DNA from: a bacterium
GTDB lineage: Bacteria > Myxococcota_A > Bradymonadia > UBA7976 > UBA1532
NCBI GenBank assembly: GCA_030426085.1
Contig: JAUHYW010000085.1
Coordinates: 1-41,919, forward strand
Direction: 5' to 3'
DNA length: 41,919 bases
The notes below the pieces were generated by a model. That model was given only the letters and a program-made list of their open reading frames with translations, searched no databases and had not been told where the DNA came from. A program made the translations under genes and the position numbers. Positions 1,351 to 38,533 of this stretch are shown here, piece after piece; within the stretch, counting starts at the first letter, position 1; the number at the start of each line of letters is the position of its first letter.

Positions 1351-3690
1351 TCAGCTCTCGAGCGCCGCTTTCAGCAGCGCCCGGGTGGTCTGGGGGTCGG
1401 CCCGGCCGCCGCTCTCCCGCATCACCTGGCCGATGAAGAACCCGATGAGGCTGGCTTTGCCTCCGCGGTACTGCGCTGCCTGCTGGGGGTGCCCCTCGAT
1501 CACCGTTCGCACGATGCGCCGCAGCGCCGCCTCGTCGTCCAGCTTGCGCAGGCCGCGGTCGTCGACGATGGCCTCCGCCCGGCCGCCCTCGGTCATCAGG
1601 ACGCCCAGGACCTCCTTGGCCGCGGTGCTCGAGACGACGTCTTCGTCGGCCAGCCGGGCGAGGTGCCCCAGCTCGGCCCCGTCGAACGGGAGATCGGCCG
1701 CCTCGCGGTCGCCCAGCTCTCCGATGAGCACGTTGACCGCCCACTTGGCCACCGACGCCGGGTCGTCGTAGGCCGCGATCGCCGCCTCGAAGAGATCGGA
1801 GAGCGCCCGGTCGCCGGTCAGCACGTCGGCGTCGTCTTCGCCGAGGCCCAGCGCGTCGGCGTAGCGGTCGTAGCGCGCGCTCAGCGTCGGGTCCTCCGCC
1901 CGGATCGAGGCCCGGATCTGGGCCGGGGTGCGCTTCGAGGGGCGGCTGTCGGACTTGCGCCCGCCCTCGGCGGCCGCCTCGCTGCTCTCGGGCGCGGAGG
2001 CGGCCTCGGCCTCCTCCCGCTTCTTCGCCCAGCTGTCGCGCAGGGGGATGATCCGGTTGAAGACGAGCCGCTCACCGCACCCGTCGACCGGGTCGCGCCA
2101 GAAGTAGCCCTGCCGCTCGAACTGGTAGCGCGTGGCCGGGTCGTCTTCGAGCACGCTGGGCTCGACCAGCGCCCCGTCGGCGAGCACCAGCGAGTCGGGG
2201 TTGAGGTCGTCGAGCCACTCGCCGTCGGTGCCGGGGAAGGGCACCGCGAACAGCCGGTCGTAGAGCCGCGCGGTGCACTCGACCGCGTGATCGGCCGAGA
2301 CCCAGTGCAGGGTGCCCCGGACCTTGCGCCCGTCGGGCGACGCGCCGCCCCGGCTCTCGGGGTCGTAGGTGCACTCCAGCCGGACCACCGCCCCGTCCGC
2401 GTCGCGCACCACCCGCTCGCAGGTGATGTAGTACGCGTAACGCAGCCGCACCTCGCGGCCCGGCGCCAGCCGGTAGTAGCCCTTGGGCGGGTCTTCGGAG
2501 AAGTCGCTGCGCTCGATGAACAGCCGCCGCCCGAACGGCACCGGGCGGGTGCCCTCTCGGGGCACGTCGTGCGGCCAGTAGGGCGCGTCGAACGACTCCT
2601 CCTCGCCCTCGGGGTAGTTGGTGATCACGACCTCGAGCGGGTCGAGCACCGCCATCACCCGCGGGGCGCGGGTGTTGAGCGCGTCCCGGATCTCGTAGTC
2701 GAGGCGCTCGATGTCGATGACCGTGTTGTTCTTGGTCACCCCCACCGCCTCGGCGAAGTTCACCAGGGCCTCGGGCGGGATGCCGCCTCGGCGCATGCCG
2801 GCCACGGTGGGCATGCGGGGGTCGTCCCAGCCGTCGACCCGCTTCTCCTCGACGAGCTGCTTCAGCCAGCGCTTGCTGAGCACGGTATAGGTCATCGCCA
2901 GCCGGGCGAACTCGTACTGGTGCGAGACGTGCTCCACCGGCGCGTGGGCCAGGACCCAGTCGTACAGCTCGCGGTTGTTCTCGAACTCGAGGGTGCAGAT
3001 CGAGTGGGTGATGCCCTCGATCGAGTCCGACAGGCAGTGGGCGTAGTCGTACATCGGGTAGATCGACCACTCTTCGCCGGTGCGGGGGTGGGGCGCGTTG
3101 CGGATGCGGTACAGCAGCGGGTCCCGCATCAGCATGTTGGGCGAGGTCATGTCGATCTTCGCCCGCAGGGTGTACGCCCCATCGGGGAACTCGCCCCGCC
3201 GCATGCCGTCGAGCAGCTTCAGGCTCTCCTCGGGCGGCCGGTCCCGGTCGGGGCTGGCGGTGCCCGGCTCGGTCAGGCTGCCCCGGGTGGCCCGGATCTC
3301 GTCCACGCTCAGGCTGCACACGTACGCCTTGCCGGCGCGCACGAGGTGCTGCGCGTAGGCGTACATCTTCTCGAAGTAGTCCGAGGCGTGGAAGAAGGCG
3401 TCGCCCCAGTCGAAGCCGAGCCAGCGGATGTCCTCGGCGATGGCCCGGGCGAACTTCTCGTCTTCGACCAGCGGGTTGGTGTCGTCCATGCGCAGATGGC
3501 ACACCCCGCCGGGGTAGTCCCGGGCGATGCCGAAGTTGAGGCAGATCGACTTGGCGTGGCCGATGTGCAGGAAGCCGTTGGGCTCCGGCGGGAAGCGGGT
3601 CACCGGGTGCGGGTAGCGGCCGGCCGCCAGATCGGCGTCGATGATCGCCCGGATGAAGTTGCTGCGGGATGATTCGGGTGCGTCGGACAC
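1351..3690 (-). CDS. glnS: Glutaminyl-tRNA synthetase with C-terminal YqeY domain
   Basis: Charges tRNA-Gln with glutamine using ATP in the cytoplasm. The class I core shows the PPEPNGFLHIGHAKS signature (HIGH at residues 42-45) and a KMSKS-type VLSKR near residue 270, followed by the anticodon-binding beta-barrels. After about residue 557 there is an Ala/Glu/Ser-rich linker, then a roughly 175-residue helical domain of the GatB/YqeY type ending in PQTTRALLKAALES. A YqeY tail on GlnRS is known from Deinococcus, where it helps tRNA binding; most bacterial GlnRS of about 550 residues lack it. I chose the GTG at 3690 (779 residues) because TTGGAGG lies 6-7 nt upstream and the protein then begins VSDAPESSRSNFI, as GlnRS does; a longer start at 3759 adds an unlikely leader. 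Having GlnRS suggests direct charging rather than the transamidation route. Confidence 0.95.
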   Translation of the reverse strand: MSDAPESSRSNFIRAIIDADLAAGRYPHPVTRFPPEPNGFLHIGHAKSICLNFGIARDYPGGVCHLRMDDTNPLVEDEKFARAIAEDIRWLGFDWGDAFFHASDYFEKMYAYAQHLVRAGKAYVCSLSVDEIRATRGSLTEPGTASPDRDRPPEESLKLLDGMRRGEFPDGAYTLRAKIDMTSPNMLMRDPLLYRIRNAPHPRTGEEWSIYPMYDYAHCLSDSIEGITHSICTLEFENNRELYDWVLAHAPVEHVSHQYEFARLAMTYTVLSKRWLKQLVEEKRVDGWDDPRMPTVAGMRRGGIPPEALVNFAEAVGVTKNNTVIDIERLDYEIRDALNTRAPRVMAVLDPLEVVITNYPEGEEESFDAPYWPHDVPREGTRPVPFGRRLFIERSDFSEDPPKGYYRLAPGREVRLRYAYYITCERVVRDADGAVVRLECTYDPESRGGASPDGRKVRGTLHWVSADHAVECTARLYDRLFAVPFPGTDGEWLDDLNPDSLVLADGALVEPSVLEDDPATRYQFERQGYFWRDPVDGCGERLVFNRIIPLRDSWAKKREEAEAASAPESSEAAAEGGRKSDSRPSKRTPAQIRASIRAEDPTLSARYDRYADALGLGEDDADVLTGDRALSDLFEAAIAAYDDPASVAKWAVNVLIGELGDREAADLPFDGAELGHLARLADEDVVSSTAAKEVLGVLMTEGGRAEAIVDDRGLRKLDDEAALRRIVRTVIEGHPQQAAQYRGGKASLIGFFIGQVMRESGGRADPQTTRALLKAALES

Positions 3691-3786
3691 GGCGGCCTCC
3701 AAGAAGAAGGCGCCATCTTGCGGTGTGCGGGGGCCGGCCGCAAGCCGGCCCGCCCCCATGGGGACCGGCGCGGCCCGGCGATCGGG

Positions 3787-20086: not shown

Positions 20087-22822
20087 TCAGCGGGCGAACG
20101 TGGGCCGGATGAGGCGGCGCCGGGGGCCGGCGGCGCCGCCCGGGGGGTCCATCACCATGCGGAAGCCGGCCCGCAGGTCGGGCACGTCCCGGGCGACGGC
20201 CTCGCGGTGGGTGATCCGGCAGCCGACGTCCGTGGTGGTGGCGTAGTTGCCGCCTTTGCTCACCCGGACCCCGTCGTCGGCGGCGAACGGGCTGTCGCAG
20301 TACTCGCTGACGCAGCCGGCCATGTCGAGCAGGCCGTAGGGCGAGCAGTCGCTGGGGAACGAGCCCACCCGCTCGGGCGTGGGCCGGCCGGCGCGGGAGG
20401 CGGCCATCTTGCAGAACAGGGCGTCGAACCGGTTGCCCCAGGGGTACAGCCGGCCGTCGGTGCCCCGGGCGGCCTTCTCCCACTCGGCCTCGGTCGGCAG
20501 GCGCACCGGCTGGCCCGAGACCCGGGCGTACCACGCGCAGAACGCCTCGGCGTCGTCGAAGCTGACGCCGAGCACCGGCCAGTGGGGCTCCCAGTGCAGC
20601 CCCTCGTCGTCCACCGCCGGCATCTGAAGGCGCCCGTCGGGGCCCCGGGTCCACAGGTGCCCCGCGCCGGCCTTGAGCCGCGGCAGCCGGGCCACCGCCG
20701 CCTCGGGGTCTTCGGCGTCGAGCGCCTGCACGAAGGCCAGGTACTCTCCGCAGGTCACCGGGTAGCGGGCCACGAACAGGTCGGCGACCTGCACTTTGCG
20801 CCGGTGTCGGGCCGAGGTGCAGGTCGGGTCGCCGCCCATCGCGAACGGGCCCCCCGGCACGTAGAGGAAGTGGTCCCCGATCTCGGCCGGGCGGAACAGC
20901 CTGGCGGAGATGTCGAGCAGCTCGCCCCGCTCGACCCGCACCGGGTAGACCGTCGGCCGGTGCCCGTCCAGCTCCATCGTCAGCAGCCAGTCGCCCTCGG
21001 CGAGCGGCACGTTGTTGAGCGGCGTCGTGCCCAGCGGCTCGTCCATGAGGGTCGTCTGGCGCAGGTCGACCTCCATGTACCGGGCGGCGGTGACGTGGGC
21101 CCCGGCGGGCACCGTGCGCACCACCAGCCGGCCCTCGCCGCGGAGCTGCTCGTCGAGCAGGCCCCGGTTGTGGGCCTCGACCAGCCCCCGGTAGTAGATC
21201 GTGGCCCCGTCGTCCCCCGCCGCCTCGGCCTCGCGCAGCTTGATCCAGTACAGCCGGGCCAGCTCGTTGCTCGCCGCGTCGTTCTCGGGGTCGAAGCCCA
21301 CCGCCGCCATCAGCGACTGCACCGCGGCGCTGAACTGCTGGTGCATGCGCAGCTCGGCCTCGGCGACCGCCGCCTGGCAGCCCCACAGCGGGCGCTTGAC
21401 CTCCAGCGGCGCGTGGCCCTCGACCCGCCACTCCATCTCGAGCAGCGCCTCGCGGGCGTCCTCCAGCTCGGCCCGGGCCCGCTGGAAGCCCTCGACCCGC
21501 TCGAGGCCCTCGGCGAGCTTCTCCTCCGAGAGCCGGGTCCGCCGGTCGAGGTCTTCGAGGCCGGCCAGGTACCGCTCGAGGTCGTCGAGGATGGCCCGCA
21601 CCGTCTGGTAGCGCTCGCGGGGGCGCTTGGCGAGGCACTTGAGGCAGATCGCTTCGAGGGCCGGCGAGGTGGGGTGGTCGGGGTTGCGCTTCGAGGGCGG
21701 CACCGGGGCCTGGGTGATGACCGCCTTGAGCGTCTCCTTGAAGTTGCGCCCCCGAAAGGGCGGTCGCCAGGCCAGGATCTCGTAGAGCAGCGCGCCGAGC
21801 GAGTAGATGTCGGAGCGGGCGTCGACCCGGTCGACTTTGCCCGCCGCCTGCTCCGGCGGCATGTAGGCCGGGGTGCCGGTGACCAGCCCCATCATCGTCG
21901 CGTCGGCCGACTGGCTGCGCGAGGTCGAGACCCGGTCGCCGTCGTCGGGGATCTCCTCGGCCCGCCCGAGCACCTTGGCCACCCCCCAGTCGAGCACCAG
22001 CGTCTCGCCGTAGTCGCCGACCATGACGTTGCTCGGCTTGATGTCGCGGTGGATGACCCCCCGGCTGTGGGCGAAGCCGATGGCCATGCACACCTGCTGG
22101 AAGATCGTCAGCAGGCGGGTGCGGCTGAAGTCGCGGGCGGTCGCCGCATCGCCGGTGCGCAGGCGCTTGACGACGTCCTTGAGGGTGCGGCCCTGCACCA
22201 GCTTCATCGTGAAGAAGACCTCGCCCCCGCTGAAGTAGCCGAAGTCGTGCACCGGCACGATGTTCGGGTGCTCGAGCTGGGCGGTGATCTGGGCCTCTTC
22301 GACGAACTTCTTGAGCACGTAGTCCGAGACCTGCGAGCCGTCGATGAGGGTCTTCATGACCAGGGTGCGCATCAGCTCCCGGTCGCGCACGACGTGGATG
22401 CAGCCCACGCCGCCCCGGGCGAGCTCGTCTTCGACGGCGTAGCGCTCCGGGGGGCGGGACTCGCCGCCGGCCTCCTGGCGCATCGCGGCCACCCGGCGCA
22501 CGGCCTGATCGTCCACCTCGGGGGCCATCGGCCGCAGCCCGTGGTTCCAGCCGCCGGTGAGGTCGCTGCCCAGCGTGCTGTGGGCCACGCTGCTGCCGGT
22601 GGCCCCGTCGCCCACCGACTCGTCGAGCCCGGTGTGGGTCTGCTCGGCGCGCCGGGGCGGGGGTGGGGGCGGTCGATCGGGGTCGACGAGGCCCCGCTCG
22701 CGCAGCAGGGCCAGGATCTCGTCCCGACGCCCCTCGGCGAGCAGCCGCTGGCAGAGATCGGCGAGCAGGCGGTTGGCGCCGTCGCGCTCCGCCGCCCGCT
22801 GAATGAGGGTCGACAGGTCCAT
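20087..22822 (-). CDS. Ser/Thr kinase fused to FGE-like domain
   Basis: 911 residues. After a helical N-terminus and a Pro-rich linker, the kinase spans ~125-420: LARGGVGCIHVV loop (with Val where the second aromatic/Met often sits), VMKTL lysine, HRDIKPSNVM, DWG, GTPAYMPPEQ and SDIYSLGALLYE. A coiled-coil/TPR-like stretch (~430-600) leads to an FGE-sulfatase domain (~640-890): FLYVPGGPFAMGGD, YPVTCGEYLAFV, VSFDDAEAFCAWYARVSGQPVRLPTEAEWEKAARG, LLDMAGCVSEYC and LRAGFRMV. The Cys pair of catalytic FGE is not in place (GGNYATTTDVGCRI), so this half is more likely a ligand- or protein-binding module. No membrane span is visible. Kinase-FGE fusions occur in myxobacteria. Transcription is divergent from the plus-strand signalling operon. 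Confidence 0.92.
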   Translation of the reverse strand: MDLSTLIQRAAERDGANRLLADLCQRLLAEGRRDEILALLRERGLVDPDRPPPPPPRRAEQTHTGLDESVGDGATGSSVAHSTLGSDLTGGWNHGLRPMAPEVDDQAVRRVAAMRQEAGGESRPPERYAVEDELARGGVGCIHVVRDRELMRTLVMKTLIDGSQVSDYVLKKFVEEAQITAQLEHPNIVPVHDFGYFSGGEVFFTMKLVQGRTLKDVVKRLRTGDAATARDFSRTRLLTIFQQVCMAIGFAHSRGVIHRDIKPSNVMVGDYGETLVLDWGVAKVLGRAEEIPDDGDRVSTSRSQSADATMMGLVTGTPAYMPPEQAAGKVDRVDARSDIYSLGALLYEILAWRPPFRGRNFKETLKAVITQAPVPPSKRNPDHPTSPALEAICLKCLAKRPRERYQTVRAILDDLERYLAGLEDLDRRTRLSEEKLAEGLERVEGFQRARAELEDAREALLEMEWRVEGHAPLEVKRPLWGCQAAVAEAELRMHQQFSAAVQSLMAAVGFDPENDAASNELARLYWIKLREAEAAGDDGATIYYRGLVEAHNRGLLDEQLRGEGRLVVRTVPAGAHVTAARYMEVDLRQTTLMDEPLGTTPLNNVPLAEGDWLLTMELDGHRPTVYPVRVERGELLDISARLFRPAEIGDHFLYVPGGPFAMGGDPTCTSARHRRKVQVADLFVARYPVTCGEYLAFVQALDAEDPEAAVARLPRLKAGAGHLWTRGPDGRLQMPAVDDEGLHWEPHWPVLGVSFDDAEAFCAWYARVSGQPVRLPTEAEWEKAARGTDGRLYPWGNRFDALFCKMAASRAGRPTPERVGSFPSDCSPYGLLDMAGCVSEYCDSPFAADDGVRVSKGGNYATTTDVGCRITHREAVARDVPDLRAGFRMVMDPPGGAAGPRRRLIRPTFAR

Positions 22823-32287: not shown

Positions 32288-33928
32288 TCACTCGGCCTCG
32301 AAGGCGCCGATGCTCGGCCGGGCTGCGTCGCGGGGGTCGCCGTCGAAGTCCACCGCCGGATCGAGGGCGGTCGGCGCGCCGGCGCCGATGGCCGGGGAGT
32401 CGGCGCTCAAGCGCAGGCTGTCGATCGAGCGCGGACCGTCGGGTCCGACCAGCCGCGGATCGACGTGCAGCGCGTCGGCGCCCATGAAGCCGGGGTCGGT
32501 GTAGTAGCCCGCCGCCTCGTAGTCGGGGTCGATGAACCACAGCAGGTTGTGGTGCACCCCCGGCAGCGCGTCGAGGGGCAGGCGTCGGTTCTCGTCGCCG
32601 TCGCTGACGAAGATCGGCCCGGCGCGGTTGAGGCACAGGTTGTTGGCGAAGACCAGCGCCTGGGGGTCGACGTCCCGGGGGCGGTCGGCGTCGATGACCC
32701 CGCACGCCCAGCGCATGTCGACGAAGGTGTTGTTCACCGCCGTGATGGCCCGCAGATCGGCGGTGGCGCTGCCCCAGTTGTAGGCGAAGGTCACCCCGGT
32801 GCCGCCGTAGTCGGCGGAGCGATCGGCGCTGCGCACGAGCACGTTGTCGGCGAAGACCACATCGTGCAGCCGCCCGCCCGACTCGCCCGCCGCGGCCATG
32901 CTCGACCCGTCGCAGTCGACGGCGACGTTGCCCCGGAAGACGATCGGCCCCACGTCCGCGTCCCAGGCGTCGGCGTAGAGGCAGCCCCGGTTGACATCCG
33001 CCAGCCGGTTGCCGACCACGAAGACGTTGCGCGGCCCTTCGGGCAGGCCGTCGGCCGTCGTGCGCACCGTGCCGCCGCCCTTGATGTCGATGCCTTCGCC
33101 GCCCCGGCTGCCCGGCCCGCCGTCGACCACCGCGTTGTCGACCACCGCCACCCCATCGCTCGAGCCGGCGACCGTCAGGCACTCGTGGTTGCCGTCGTTG
33201 CACGCCAACTCGACCCGGTTGCGGCGCACGGTGACCGCGTCGCTCGACCAGACGCCGATGCCCGACGACCAGGTGTCGTGGGTCGCGCAGTCCTCGACCA
33301 CGACGTGGTGCGACAGCGTGACCGCGATGCCGTTGTCGGCCGAGTGTCGGACGCGCAGGCCGCTCAGGCGCACGTAGGCCGCCTCGTGCACATGGACCGC
33401 GCCGCGGACCCAGCGCCCCGGGCCGGCGTCGAGATCGAGCCCGTCCGCGTCGACGACGACCGGCCCGTCGCCGTGGGCCATCAGCGTCAGGTAGGCCCCC
33501 GGCTCGCCGCCGCCGGTGACGACGATCTGCTCGCGATAGGTCCCGCCATGCAGCGCGATGGCGTCGCCCGGGCGCGCCTGCTCCAGCGCGTGAGCCACCG
33601 TGGCCCACGGGGCGGCTTCGCTGCCGTCGGCGCCGTCGTCCCCGCCCTCGGCCACATGCCAGATCGTGCCGCCGATGTGCCCGCTGCCCGGGTTGAAGGC
33701 CGGGACCCCGAACCGGGCAGCGCGATCAGCGGGCCCGGCGTCCGGTGCCGCGTCGGCTGCGGCGTCCGGCGTCATCTCGGGGTCGACGTCGGCCCTGCTC
33801 GGGGAGCCATCGAGCCCGCGGTCAGCCGGATCGGACGATCCGCCGCTCGACCCGGGGGTCGGGGTGCAGGCGAGGGCGAGCAGCGCGGCGCAGGCGACGA
33901 GCGCCCGGCGGTGGCGTGGCGAGGTCAT
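32288..33928 (-). CDS. Right-handed beta-helix lipoprotein
   Basis: 546 residues; ATG at 33928 with GGGAG 5 nt upstream. The signal peptide ends with lipobox LALAC (Cys21) and is followed by an Asp/Ala/Pro-rich tether (DAAADAAPDAGPAD). Residues ~85-520 show DUF1565/parallel beta-helix features: WHVAEGGDDGADGSEAAPWATVAHALEQARPGDAIALHGGTYREQIVV at the cap, then repeated rungs with N/D ladders (RVRHSADNGIAVTLSHHVVVEDC, VTVRRNRVEL, VVDNAVVDGG, VVGNRL, FRGNVAVDC, FADNVLV, AVNNTFVD, FANNLCL). The end (DPRLVGPDG, LSADSPAIGAG, SIGAFE) is typical of such helices. These folds bind or cleave acidic polysaccharides; no catalytic site is clear, so lyase activity is only possible. It is anchored in the envelope. 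A -24/-12 element precedes it. Confidence 0.87.
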   Translation of the reverse strand: MTSPRHRRALVACAALLALACTPTPGSSGGSSDPADRGLDGSPSRADVDPEMTPDAAADAAPDAGPADRAARFGVPAFNPGSGHIGGTIWHVAEGGDDGADGSEAAPWATVAHALEQARPGDAIALHGGTYREQIVVTGGGEPGAYLTLMAHGDGPVVVDADGLDLDAGPGRWVRGAVHVHEAAYVRLSGLRVRHSADNGIAVTLSHHVVVEDCATHDTWSSGIGVWSSDAVTVRRNRVELACNDGNHECLTVAGSSDGVAVVDNAVVDGGPGSRGGEGIDIKGGGTVRTTADGLPEGPRNVFVVGNRLADVNRGCLYADAWDADVGPIVFRGNVAVDCDGSSMAAAGESGGRLHDVVFADNVLVRSADRSADYGGTGVTFAYNWGSATADLRAITAVNNTFVDMRWACGVIDADRPRDVDPQALVFANNLCLNRAGPIFVSDGDENRRLPLDALPGVHHNLLWFIDPDYEAAGYYTDPGFMGADALHVDPRLVGPDGPRSIDSLRLSADSPAIGAGAPTALDPAVDFDGDPRDAARPSIGAFEAE

Positions 33929-34065: not shown

Positions 34066-35895
34066 TCACATCCGCGCCAGTCTGGCCCGCAGGCGGCCGT
34101 CCGCGGTGCGCCCGGCGATCGCCGCGGCCAGGGCCCGGCGGGCCTCGACGTCCAGCTCGGCGTGGGCCACCAGCAGCTCGACCAGCGGGCCGTGGGTCGC
34201 CGGGCTCAGGGCGCCGTCGTTCACCGCCGCCGCCAGCGTATTCAGGTGCCCCGCCGACAGCGGGTGGCGGGTCAGCGACTTGACCGCGGCCCGGGCCACG
34301 CGGGGGTCGGCGTCGGCCATCAGGCCGGTCAGGGCCTGCTCGGCCAGGGCGCCGGGGGTCTTGCGCAGCGCGGTCGCCGCCGCCCGGCGCACGCCCGGAT
34401 CATCGTCGGCGGCGAAGGCGGCCACCGTCTCGATCGACTCGGGCACCCCGGCGTTGCCCAGGGCCAGGACCAGCGCCCGGCGGTCGTCGCCCTCGGCGCC
34501 GCGCAGCGCGCCCTCGAGCTGGCGGACGTGCCCCAGGGCCCGGTCGGGGTCGCCGCTGCGGTACAGATGACCCGCCGCCGCGCCCAGCACCGTCGCCGCG
34601 CTCTGCCGCTCCACGCCGCCCGCCGCCCGCCACGCCTCGGCCACCGCCTGCACCGTCTCCGGCTCGGGGCGCTCGACGAAGCCGGCCCGGGTCAGCAGCG
34701 CCGCGTAGCGCGGGTCCTCGCGGTGGGCCTCGAGCACGCCCCGCAGCGCCGCCTGGGCCTCGGGGTGCCCCACGCTGGCCAGCAGATCGAGGACCAGCGC
34801 CCGGCCCTTGTGCCCCAGGCGCGGATCATCCGTCGCCAGCCGGCCCAGCGCGGTCGCCGCCGACGGGTCGAGCAGCAGCCGCCCGGTCGCCTGCCACGCC
34901 CAGCGGCTGTGCTCCGGCATCTGGCCCCCCGGCCCGAAGGCGCGCAGGTCATCGGTGATGCGGTCGAGGGTCATGTCGCCCGCGCGCCGGACCCGCATCA
35001 TGTGCCGGGCCTCGGCGCTCACCGGCCACCGGTCGAGCCCGGTCCGGGGCCCCAGCGCCGCGACCGGATCGCGCCCGTCGGCCGGCGCCGGGCCCATCGC
35101 CAGCAGCTCGAAGTCCAGCGCGCCCTCGATGCGCAGCGCCTCGCCGGCCCGGATGCGCTCGGTGCCCTTCAGCCGCAGGACGTGCCCCGCCCGGGCGACG
35201 CGCGCTGTGTAGCGGGCGTCGACCGCCGGCGCGATGTCGCCCGGCGCGCCGTCCAGCCGGGCGTAATCGAAGCGGTGGCGCCCCAGCTCGACGCTCTCGG
35301 CGTCGGCGCCGACGACCTCGTAGTCGGTCAGCGCCTGCCCGTGCTGAGTATTCTCCGGGGCCTCCCAGGTCGTCTCACCGGCCCGCACCACGAGCTGGAT
35401 CTCACCGGCGACCAGCCGCGACAGGTGCTGGAAGAGCGTCGGCGCGTCGCCGGCGAAGCGCAGGCCGAGGACCGCCCCGTCGGGGGCCACCTCCAGCAGC
35501 GCCTCGCGCCCGGCGAAGACCGCGTCGGCCGCCGCCCGATCGGGCATCACGTCCTCCCCGAGCATCGTCAGCCCGTGGCGCTCGACCTCCACGAAGCGCA
35601 GCCCCAGCCGGGTGTTGCCGTCGGTGCGCCCGTAGCTGCGCAGCTCGACGTGGGCCGCCAGATCGAGGGCCCCTTCGAGGGTGGCCGGGCCGGCCTCGAT
35701 GCGCTTGTGGCCCTTCAGCTCGAGCCGATAGCGCCAGACGGTGTCCGCCGGCCAGCGCAGGCGGGGCGCGACCGGCCCGGTCGGGGCGGCCGCGCCACGA
35801 TCGGGCGGGGCGATGGCCTCCTGGACGGCGACGAGGCCGCCGACGACGGCGAGGGTGGCGGCGAGCAGCAGAGCGGGGGCGGCGAGGCGGCGCAT
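34066..35895 (-). CDS. Exported vitellogenin-N-like plus HEAT-repeat protein
   Basis: 609 residues; ATG at 35895 with CGGAG 6 nt upstream. An N-terminal hydrophobic segment (LAAPALLLAATLAVVGGLVAV) is a signal anchor or signal peptide. Residues ~45-290 are a beta-barrel-like domain with order and spacing like the N-sheet of vitellogenin/MTP: WRYRLELKG, ALDLAAHVELRSYG, LGLRFVEVE, then VAPDGAVLGLRF, LFQHLSRLVAGEIQLV, WEAPEN..G..LTDYEVVG, and a last strand pair RLKGTERI/LDFELLAMG. From ~330 to the end it is alpha-helical with HEAT repeats (ALGRLATDDPRLGHKGRALVLDLLASVG, DDPGVRRAAATALRK, DADPRVARAAVKSLTR). This is the domain order of large lipid transfer proteins, without their lipid-cavity sheets. 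HEAT assignment is strong, the vitellogenin-N likeness is moderate. Confidence 0.75.
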   Translation of the reverse strand: MRRLAAPALLLAATLAVVGGLVAVQEAIAPPDRGAAAPTGPVAPRLRWPADTVWRYRLELKGHKRIEAGPATLEGALDLAAHVELRSYGRTDGNTRLGLRFVEVERHGLTMLGEDVMPDRAAADAVFAGREALLEVAPDGAVLGLRFAGDAPTLFQHLSRLVAGEIQLVVRAGETTWEAPENTQHGQALTDYEVVGADAESVELGRHRFDYARLDGAPGDIAPAVDARYTARVARAGHVLRLKGTERIRAGEALRIEGALDFELLAMGPAPADGRDPVAALGPRTGLDRWPVSAEARHMMRVRRAGDMTLDRITDDLRAFGPGGQMPEHSRWAWQATGRLLLDPSAATALGRLATDDPRLGHKGRALVLDLLASVGHPEAQAALRGVLEAHREDPRYAALLTRAGFVERPEPETVQAVAEAWRAAGGVERQSAATVLGAAAGHLYRSGDPDRALGHVRQLEGALRGAEGDDRRALVLALGNAGVPESIETVAAFAADDDPGVRRAAATALRKTPGALAEQALTGLMADADPRVARAAVKSLTRHPLSAGHLNTLAAAVNDGALSPATHGPLVELLVAHAELDVEARRALAAAIAGRTADGRLRARLARM

Positions 35896-35932
35896 GGCGA
35901 CTCCGAAGGGGCTGGGAGGTGAGGGCCGGAAA

Positions 35933-36021
35933 CCGGGCCGGCCGAGCCGCCGAGGGAGGTCACGCGACACCCCTCGGCGGCTCGGCGGGCCCGGCCGCTG
36001 CGGCCGGGTTCGACGACCCGG
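35933..36021 (-). promoter_or_regulatory. Overlapping hairpins in the leader of the HEAT gene
   Basis: Hairpin I: a 24-nt arm (35933-35956) pairs with 35971-35994, 23 of 24 positions, around a 14-nt loop. Hairpin II: CCCGGCCG (35990-35997) with CGGCCGGG (36001-36008), loop CTG. Hairpin III: CCGGGT (36004-36009) with ACCCGG (36016-36021). I and II share 35990-35994, and II and III share 36004-36008, so neighbours exclude each other. The region lies between the stop of the large beta-rich gene and the HEAT gene start, inside the leader predicted from the -24/-12 element at 36026-36040. Confidence 0.7.
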
Positions 36022-36025
36022 TATT

Positions 36026-36040
36026 GCAGCGACCGTGCCA
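36026..36040 (-). promoter_or_regulatory. Sigma54-like -24/-12 element before the HEAT gene
   Basis: Minus strand: TGGCACGGTCGCTGC followed by AA. GG is at 36039-36038 and GC at 36027-36026, the required spacing. One mismatch (C for T) to TGGCACG-N4-TTGCA. Predicted start about 36014, giving a ~119-nt leader that contains the hairpins. Confidence 0.55.
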
Positions 36041-36052
36041 GGACAGGGCGGC

Positions 36053-38533
36053 TCACATGGGGTTGGAGAACCAGGTGAAGAGCGAGGCGAGCGGCACCTG
36101 GGTGTCGAAGTCGAGCACGTCGAACTCGGTCTCGACCCCGCTCCAGGAGAAGAAGGTCTTCTCGGCGCTCTCCGACAGCGGCCCGATGCCGATCTCGGCG
36201 AAGAGCGAGAGCTTGCCGTCGAGGACCCGCACCGCCGCTTCCAGCGTGCTGGCGATGGTCAGCGCCAGGTTGGCGACGTTGCCCTCGTCGGCGGCGACGC
36301 CCAGCGACAGCTCGAAGGGCAGCCGGACGTGCACCAGGGCCAGCTCGCCCTTGACCCCGGCCTTGGCGATGACGAAGTCGACCCCCACCTCGGCGAAGCC
36401 GTCGAACTCGACGATGGGCTCGAGGCGGCCGACCAGCGTGGCGGCGACCTGCTCGCAGTCGGCCCCGCCGCGGTCGATCTCGGCGGCCAGGCTGTGCTTG
36501 GTGCCGATGCGGCCCGAGGCGCCGACCTCGAGGCTCATCGGGATGCCCAGGATGGTGAAGCGGTACGTCTCGTCGGCCAGCGTCTCCTCGGCGATGTTCT
36601 CCCCGTCGACCAGGGTGTAGGTCTCCTGCTCGATGAGGGTCTGGGGCAGGTCGATGACCGTCTGGCCGAAGACCTCCAGATCGACGTCGATGCGGTCGAA
36701 GCCGGCGTGGGCGTCGGCGACCACCAGATCCTGCTGCTGACCCAGCACGCTGATGTCGGCCGAGAACGCGGCGTCGAAGGTCGCCTCGAGGTTGCACAGG
36801 CCGTGCTCGAGGTCGAACACCTGCCAGCTCGTCTCGTAGCTGTAGCCGGCGCCGAACAGCGAGTTGCCCATGGTCACCGCGTCCGAGGCGCCGCCGGTCA
36901 TGCGCGGACTGCCGCCGTCACCGCCGTCGGCGTCGAGCACCTCGTCCAGCTCGTCGGCGAGCGCGTCGCGCCAGATGTCGCGGCGGGCCATGAACAGATC
37001 CACCGCCGCCGGGCTGGTGGTGTAGTTCTTCCGGCTGTACATCAGGTTGTCGCTGATGGGGTGGCGGAAGGTGTAGTCGGCCAGCGCCGCGAAGTCGTCG
37101 CCGGTGTAGGTCAGGCACTTCTCGTAGGCCCGCTGCCGGGCCGCGCCGACGGTGTCCTTCATGCGCTGGGCGAAGCGCCGGGGCGACCAGTCGCAGAGGG
37201 TCGTCGCGTTCGGGTTCACGCAGCCCTCGGCCCGCGCCGCCTGCAGCCGACCGCGGATGGCGCTGTCGAACGACGCCAGCCGGGCGTTGACCGAGGCCCG
37301 GTGGGGGGCCATCAGCGCGTCGAGGTCGATCTCATCCAGGCAGTCGCCGATGGGATCGGCGCCCGGCGGCAGGTGCCGGGGGTCGGGCATGTTGTCGAAG
37401 CACTCGCCCGCCGCCTCGCCGAACACCTGGCGCAGCGCCTGGCGCAGCGCGACGATGCTCGACTCGACCGCCAGCGCCCGCCTGGCGAGCAGCTCGGCGA
37501 AGGCCGCCTGATCGCGCTCCCGGTCGATGAGGCGCTCGTCCAGCTCACCGGCCAGGTCGAGGTTCATGTTCCAGTGCCACGGGAAGTGCTCGACGTGGTG
37601 CTGCCGGCCGGCGTCGATGGCCGCCTCGAGCCCCGCGTCGCCCAGCACGACCCCCTTGAGCCGGCGCAGGCTGCCGTCGCCCGGGTCGAAGTGCTCGTCG
37701 ATGCTGTAGTCGGCGTCGGGCGCGAACTCGACGGTGAACCAGGTGTTCTTCGGCTGCATGCCGCCGGGGAAGGGCACGGTGAACGGCCGCCCGTCGGTGC
37801 CCTCGGTGAGCAGACCGGCCATCGTCCGGGTGCCGATGGCCCGGGGATCCGTGATCGGCCCGTAGGCGAGCTGGAACACCGCCCGGTGATCCTCGGCCAC
37901 CTGCGACGCGGCGTCGTCGAAGGTCGTGTACGACAGGTACTTGTCCCGGGCGTAGTCGGCGCAGGTGCCGACCGGCGCGTCGTGGGGCGTGGCCGGCGGG
38001 GCCGGCGTCGGATCGGGCTCCGGCTCGGGCTCCGGCTCCGGCTCGGGATCGGGCGTCGGCTCGGGATCGGGCAGCGGGAACGGGTCGACGTCGTTGTAGC
38101 GGATGGCGTTGATGAACAGCCCGCCGAGCAGCGGCGCGCCCTCGCCGGCCTCGGCCAGCGACTGGCCGCCGACCGTCGAGACCGCCTCGTCGATCCGGGG
38201 CGCCACCCGGGCGTCGCCGATGTCGTCGTCCCCGCCGTCGCCGTGCACCGCGCCCGCCGCGTCGACCACCTGGGGCACGACCACCGCAGTCTCGGCCAGC
38301 CCGCCGGCCTGGTTCAGCGCCGCCTCTTCGAGCAGCGTATTGCAGATCGCGTCGGGGTTCGTCCGGGCGTCTTCGAGGAAGGCCGCCCCGCAGGCCCCGT
38401 ACATGAACGCGGGATCCTGGCACTGCGCCAGCGACGGCTGGTCGGGGCAGGGGGGCGGCGTATTGTAGGCGTGGGCCCCGCTGGTCAGCGTGATGGCGGC
38501 GGCGACGGTGAGCAGCTCGATGGACTTCCGCAT
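36053..38533 (-). CDS. Large exported beta-rich protein, partner of the HEAT gene
   Basis: 826 residues; ATG at 38533 with GGAG 7 nt upstream. Signal peptide MRKSIELLTVAAAITLTSGAHA. Residues ~25-140 have paired cysteines; a PEPEPEPD spacer follows at ~155-180. Residues ~190-500 are helical with further cysteines (CADYARDKYLSY, CFDNMPDPRHL, CLTYTGDDFAALADYTFRHP). The last ~300 residues are almost all alternating beta strands (ISVLGQQQDLVVADAHAGF, VDLEVFGQTVIDL, ILGIPMSLEVGASGRIG, VGVDFVIAKAGVKGELALVHVRLPFELSLGVA, LEAAVRVLDGKLSLFAEIGIGP), ending SLFTWFSNPM. I do not recognise the family. The amphipathic strands could form a barrel or a lipid-binding sheet. Its position upstream of the vitellogenin-N/HEAT gene suggests the two products act together in the envelope. 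Confidence 0.8.
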   Translation of the reverse strand: MRKSIELLTVAAAITLTSGAHAYNTPPPCPDQPSLAQCQDPAFMYGACGAAFLEDARTNPDAICNTLLEEAALNQAGGLAETAVVVPQVVDAAGAVHGDGGDDDIGDARVAPRIDEAVSTVGGQSLAEAGEGAPLLGGLFINAIRYNDVDPFPLPDPEPTPDPEPEPEPEPEPDPTPAPPATPHDAPVGTCADYARDKYLSYTTFDDAASQVAEDHRAVFQLAYGPITDPRAIGTRTMAGLLTEGTDGRPFTVPFPGGMQPKNTWFTVEFAPDADYSIDEHFDPGDGSLRRLKGVVLGDAGLEAAIDAGRQHHVEHFPWHWNMNLDLAGELDERLIDRERDQAAFAELLARRALAVESSIVALRQALRQVFGEAAGECFDNMPDPRHLPPGADPIGDCLDEIDLDALMAPHRASVNARLASFDSAIRGRLQAARAEGCVNPNATTLCDWSPRRFAQRMKDTVGAARQRAYEKCLTYTGDDFAALADYTFRHPISDNLMYSRKNYTTSPAAVDLFMARRDIWRDALADELDEVLDADGGDGGSPRMTGGASDAVTMGNSLFGAGYSYETSWQVFDLEHGLCNLEATFDAAFSADISVLGQQQDLVVADAHAGFDRIDVDLEVFGQTVIDLPQTLIEQETYTLVDGENIAEETLADETYRFTILGIPMSLEVGASGRIGTKHSLAAEIDRGGADCEQVAATLVGRLEPIVEFDGFAEVGVDFVIAKAGVKGELALVHVRLPFELSLGVAADEGNVANLALTIASTLEAAVRVLDGKLSLFAEIGIGPLSESAEKTFFSWSGVETEFDVLDFDTQVPLASLFTWFSNPM

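Follow-up and report, generated by a model that had tools for sequence, protein, structure and literature searches.

Two neighbouring myxobacterial genes encode proteins whose predicted folds each resemble one half of the large lipid transfer module of animals

Bacteria appear to have a version, split over two genes, of the protein family known from yolk and blood lipids in animals. In a 41,919-nucleotide stretch of DNA from Myxococcota (the window), two adjacent genes, P3 and P4, are read here with a probability of roughly 0.7 as a bacterial relative, divided between two chains, of the large lipid transfer protein (LLTP) module of animals, for which we infer the physical complex, the lipid cargo, the cellular location and the direction of transfer. 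The reading is based on the folds predicted for both halves, on the homology of P3, on the way in which the halves tile MTP and on a lasting gene partnership. Yolk formation and the transport of lipids in blood depend on apoB, vitellogenin and MTP, whose ancestry is discussed within animals in the literature that we found. An LLTP module cut in two at the boundary between superhelix and pocket, in a diverse family of bacteria, would offer an ancestor or a sister for study, and P3/P4 would be a candidate extracytoplasmic lipid carrier in Myxococcota.

Gene layout and the P3 chain

Translation confirmed that both open reading frames are real and lie on the minus strand at the positions of the original prediction, P4 being transcribed first (38533 to 36053) and P3 second (35895 to 34066). 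In other loci the two genes overlap by 4 nt, for example in Polyangium fumosum DSM 14668 (L192). P3 and its parts, with the spacer that separates it from P4, are:

34066..35895, minus strand: P3 gene, a HEAT protein of 609 aa, exported or anchored; LLTP N-module (N-sheet barrel plus superhelix), from translation, AF2 and Foldseek
35824..35895, minus strand: hydrophobic N-terminal segment of P3, residues 1-24, a probable membrane anchor or signal peptide
35089..35742, minus strand: N-sheet of P3, residues 52-269, 11 beta strands plus an internal helix, from DSSP of the model
34072..35016, minus strand: superhelix/HEAT region of P3, residues 294-608, from DSSP, Pfam HEAT_2, Vitellogenin_N and collinearity with lipovitellin
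34447..34464, minus strand: ALGNAG motif, with N481 of P3 on human MTP N479 in the alignment to 6i7s
35896..36052, minus strand: P4-P3 spacer, 157 bp

The AlphaFold2 (AF2) model of P3, built from 13 sequences with homologues gathered from whole genomes, reached a pLDDT of 90.7 and contains eleven strands with an internal helix, followed by helices to the C-terminus; the exported N-terminal beta domain and the HEAT region that had been predicted for this protein were both recovered, the latter also by Pfam HEAT_2 (2e-12 for the window P3 alone). When the model was searched against the PDB with Foldseek, ranks 1-9 were all LLTPs (MTP, lipovitellin and apoB) at 2.5e-18 to 7.4e-10, with MTP at 2.5e-18 and lipovitellin at 1.4e-15, while the best non-LLTP match was PP2A, a generic HEAT protein, at 3.5e-5. 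Alignment with VIA-align gave Z 20.6 over 533 residues for lipovitellin (model 4-559, chain 17-621), Z 18.2 for MTP 24-616, Z 17.6-17.9 for honey bee vitellogenin, and Z 20.2 for the apoB barrel construct 9bd8_A on residues 2-340 of the model. The resemblance of the N-terminal domain to the LLTP N-sheet, which had been set in advance as a test, was thus found with both apoB and lipovitellin. Unrelated HEAT, importin and alphaRep structures among the matches listed aligned to the helical part of P3 only, so that within these matches the barrel was covered solely by LLTPs.

It could be argued that P3 is an ordinary exported HEAT-repeat protein next to an unrelated beta-rich protein, and that its likeness to vitellogenin is generic. 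AlphaRep HEAT proteins came out on top of plain sequence searches with P3, which shares with generic HEAT and alphaRep proteins (PF13646) the HEAT_2 repeats in the second half of its superhelix, and the window P3 alone reached E 0.013 and 14.5 bits against Pfam Vitellogenin_N, below the Pfam cut-off of 24 bits. PF01347 matched nothing at E<=0.001 in the genome to which the window belongs, so the Pfam evidence for P3 comes from its relatives: Vitellogenin_N matched 19 of 43 P3 homologues at E<=0.01 (best 2e-18, far above the Pfam cut-off), the best family members scored 59-66 bits, and matches above the cut-off were present in 24 of 379 Myxococcota genomes versus 0 of 14 controls. The profile of the 43 members matched lipovitellin at 1.2e-12 (97-480 to 90-507) and MTP at 1.5e-7. 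Because HEAT repeats match each other readily, a second profile (A6) left the HEAT_2 repeats out, and lipovitellin was then the top match in the PDB at 2e-9 (95-447 to 90-471), in a collinear alignment from the barrel through the ALGNAG motif. The motifs in which the vitellogenin likeness had originally been seen, DGAVLGLRF, LFQHLSRLVAGE and W.APEN...G...DYEVVG, lie inside the stretch that is collinear with lipovitellin from residue 90 on in the family profile. A generic HEAT protein is an insufficient explanation when LLTPs remain the best match without the HEAT_2 repeats, and the Foldseek gap between LLTPs and generic HEAT proteins amounts to almost five orders of magnitude or more for every LLTP row; we therefore consider this reading hardly credible. 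A profile of the barrel only (A7) found no LLTP by sequence search, so the homology of the barrel rests on its fold and on the joint profile, and as far as such searches can tell the barrel alone is diverged beyond sequence detection. Taken as a whole chain, P3 is homologous to the LLTP N-module.

As a single query against genome contigs the window P3 gave no match, the matches of the A5 alignment search came solely from Polyangium, plasmid sequence searches gave no match, and the viral contig search gave a single match of 53 residues. A hydrophobic segment lies upstream of the P3 domain in 83 of 84 homologues, the one exception being truncated by the contig end, and across the family this segment often resembles an uncleaved anchor. 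We also observed P3 variants shortened to about 370-385 aa, which keep the superhelix and have no barrel (L076, G000:C132; L075, G001:C92; L154; L157). These variants also adjoin a P4 gene, from which the superhelix plus the beta domain may be the minimal unit.

The P4 chain and its C-terminal beta domain

The partner protein consists of the following parts:

36053..38533, minus strand: P4 gene, exported partner of 826 aa, from translation; adjoins P3 in most loci
38468..38533, minus strand: signal peptide of P4, residues 1-22, classical as read from the sequence, MRKSIELLTVAAAITLTSGAHA, ending in GAHA before Y
37985..38092, minus strand: Pro/Glu/Asp-rich linker of P4, residues 148-183, read from the sequence, with low-complexity matches
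36914..37984, minus strand: central region of P4, residues 184-540, Cys-containing, absent from the smallest partners, from the homologue alignment
36056..36913, minus strand: C-terminal beta domain of P4, residues 541-826, which is the part of P4 conserved as its core and resembles the LLTP lipid-binding domain

The smallest P4 partners (279-342 aa) are barely more than the beta domain and lack the central region. The beta domain, the last 286 residues of the window P4, was modelled with AF2 from 45 sequences at a pLDDT of 90.1 as 14 long antiparallel strands of up to 26 residues. Period-2 hydrophobic alternation in these strands exceeded that of shuffled sequences, both for the protein's own sequence (p=0.0004) and for the family (0/5000). 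The prediction of about 300 C-terminal residues of long amphipathic strands therefore holds for the length and the strands of the domain and for alternation above shuffles, but not for every strand, as some show no alternation.

In a Foldseek search against the PDB the four top matches of the beta domain were LLTPs (MTP 3.5e-6, lipovitellin 4.7e-6, MTP 8.5e-6 and MTP 3.4e-4), followed in fifth place by a complement pore at 2.7e-3, and VIA-align placed the domain on MTP 614-880 with Z 9.2 over 228 residues, a structural match that we grade as moderate. A profile of the beta domain found no match among PDB sequences. Among the 24,736 families of Pfam, PF09172 (Vit_open_b-sht; 'Vitellinogen, open beta-sheet') was the only one with matches in two or more of the 45 P4 beta domains; it matched three, with a best value of 0.0014, below the cut-off. 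The PF09172 HMM gave 16 weak matches at E<=10 in 28 whole genomes, including three P4 beta-domain loci (G001:C39, G348:C7 and G003:C5), each of which matched about positions 201-291 of the HMM. This points to a weak but specific sequence trace of the LLTP open beta sheet in P4. The suggestion that the neighbouring chain supplies the lipid cavity is supported by this trace together with the structure, namely the four top LLTP folds and the placement on MTP 614-880.

A C-terminal domain of amphipathic, antiparallel strands would also suit a 14-strand outer-membrane barrel, in which case P4 would be autotransporter-like with a passenger in front and P3 an unrelated periplasmic helper. VIA-align scores for the barrels OmpT, FhuA and EspP were indeed not far below that for MTP (Z 7.5-8.1 versus 9.2). 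However, Foldseek ranked LLTPs first and outer-membrane barrels only at about 7e-3 and weaker, the P4 strands reach a length given above that speaks against such a barrel, the C-terminal residue is aromatic (F/W/Y) in only 13 of 83 P4 proteins, and eight P4 proteins carry more than 80 residues after the domain. The LLTP homology of P3 would moreover be a coincidence, and we regard an outer-membrane barrel as very improbable.

The beta domain is C-terminal in most P4 proteins, and the part in front of it ranges from almost nothing to open frames of about 3,900 residues, with Pfam-type matches to Laminin_G, DUF4215, MopE, VOMI, FG-GAP and lectin-like modules. P4 proteins so varied in the size and type of their front modules look like surface or secreted proteins, and P3, with its membrane-anchor-like N-terminus, might be a membrane-tethered assembly or display chaperone for them, keeping the LLTP fold without lipid and using the C-terminal beta domain as a docking tag, comparable to the handling of apoB by MTP. 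The smallest P4 proteins nevertheless leave little to display, and a docking tag does not predict the likeness to the LLTP lipid pocket, so that we consider a chaperone of this kind rather unlikely, and favour the split lipid carrier, in which the variable modules of P4 suggest targeting to different surfaces.

Several unusual P4 loci were noted. P4 proteins of giant size, whose open frames run to about 3,200-3,900 aa and include the beta domain, stand beside P3 at L194, L195, L197, L198, L200 and L204, all in the taxonomic family f12. At L080 (G011:C106, 3774-5870, minus strand) a single protein combines a P4-like beta domain with a VOMI domain (Pfam 1.4e-29; vitelline membrane outer layer protein I). 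Six P4 beta-domain matches were scored in each of the genomes G001 and G011, a local family expansion.

Partnership of the two genes across Myxococcota

The two genes were found side by side in other Myxococcota, as had been predicted, whichever gene was used to pick the loci. Among loci selected by P3, the P4 beta domain lay within 1 kb in 45 of 55, and five of the ten remaining loci have almost no room before the contig end. Selection by the Pfam Vitellogenin_N HMM alone gave the P4 domain in 15 of the 16 loci with a family-specific, full-length P3, which again speaks against a generic HEAT protein beside an unrelated neighbour. When loci were selected by the beta domain alone, P3 adjoined it in 18 of 20, and one of the two exceptions (L208) is at a contig end. 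The P4 beta domain was present in 73 of 379 sampled genomes, and P3-P4 pairs are spread over at least 15 taxonomic families within this phylum, which was assigned as Myxococcota on the basis of Polyangium fumosum DSM 14668 (L192). L063/L064 (G010:C23) departs from this adjacency, as P3 and P4 share contig and strand but are separated by about 11 kb.

P4-first is the commonest arrangement, and P3-first, divergent and convergent arrangements also occur; since the arrangements vary, the association is more than inherited gene order. The distances between P3 proteins correlated with those between P4 proteins (Mantel r 0.69, 0/5000 permutations), a value that shared ancestry inflates, and r was 0.25 (0/5000) when restricted to pairs between different taxonomic families. 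No open reading frame containing both P3 and P4 parts was found in the loci examined jointly, and in a later locus set the two were also separate genes. Lipid-metabolism genes were not recurrent among the neighbours of P3 and P4. The only recurrent third genes were kinases and sigma-54 activators, which we dismissed as abundant families.

Proposed joining of the two halves and relation to the animal proteins

On the MTP large subunit (6i7s, 8eoj), P3 covers residues 24-616 and the P4 beta domain residues 614-880, which tiles the MTP core almost without overlap. The original prediction that P3 stops before the lipid-cavity sheets agrees with the end of its alignment at MTP 616 and with the coverage by P4 of MTP 614-880, the lipid-binding part that is absent from P3. 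N481 in the ALGNAG motif of P3 falls on N479 of MTP (index 469 in the 6i7s construct, shifted by +10 by comparison with 8eoj), and asparagine at this position is conserved in 86 of 90 P3 proteins. In MTP, N479 ties the superhelix to the C-sheet/lipid domain (PMC7444587); by analogy, N481 would lie at the chain-chain interface if the bacterial halves join as MTP does.

We propose that P3, exported and probably membrane-tethered, would contribute the N-sheet barrel and the HEAT-like superhelix, and that P4, likewise exported, would contribute the open beta sheets of long strands, located in its C-terminal domain, from which the lipid pocket is built in MTP, vitellogenin and apoB. Both chains would meet outside the cytoplasm after export, where the P3 superhelix may pack on the P4 beta domain through the face that bears the conserved ALGNAG motif, the part played by N479 within MTP. 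The joined halves could then form a single pocket that holds lipid or hands it over, and the variable front of P4, sometimes lectin-like, might decide the destination of the carrier. Phospholipid transfer is thought to be the ancient activity of MTP (PMC3337244), which makes phospholipid the first candidate cargo. The pair would be a natural split for reconstitution experiments, with the prediction that lipid is held by both chains together and not by either one separately, and that N481 of P3 is needed for joining.

The pair differs from MTP in being two chains instead of one, in having no identified counterpart of the PDI partner of MTP, and in a likeness that is one of predicted fold. Conserved disulfides are found in animal LLTPs (PMC3337244), whereas the window P3 has zero cysteines. 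With vitellogenin/lipovitellin (1lsh) and apoB (9bd1, 9bd8) the pair shares an N-sheet barrel and a superhelix that agree in order and are similar in length, together with the open beta-sheet trace in P4, but the bacterial superhelix chain stops where the lipid sheets start, and P4 has variable front modules of its own. Because the pair is not a single chain and lacks the conserved cysteines, we do not class it as a canonical LLTP, although it is a homologue of the LLTP module and probably acts in the same way.

The entries of a fold census (PMC4060292) list the SCOP superfamilies a.118.4 and f.7.1 (lipovitellin superhelix and beta-sheet shell) as 'BE', which we read as Bacteria and Eukarya, so that automated methods had apparently already flagged bacterial members; these entries name no genes, pairing or function. 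Our literature search, with most subscription journals and preprints outside its coverage, found no paper on bacterial vitellogenin-like pairs, their pairing or a split at the pocket boundary. Tentatively, and with less than even odds, the myxobacterial pair could represent a pre-animal state, in which the LLTP module arose as two bacterial proteins that come together around lipid; such a pair would later have passed to an early eukaryote and fused there, giving rise to apoB, vitellogenin and MTP. The opposite direction, in which an animal gene was acquired by bacteria and then split, may also apply.

Other genes of the window were noted in passing. The gene for a NosD-like right-handed beta-helix protein (32288-33928, minus strand) comes next after P3 in the order of transcription, and it was not recurrent beside P3 at other loci. 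A glutaminyl/glutamyl-type tRNA synthetase with a C-terminal GatB/YqeY domain is encoded at 1351-3759 (minus strand), and a fusion protein that joins a serine/threonine kinase to PEGA and to a formylglycine-generating-type (FGE-sulfatase) domain at 20087-22822 (minus strand).
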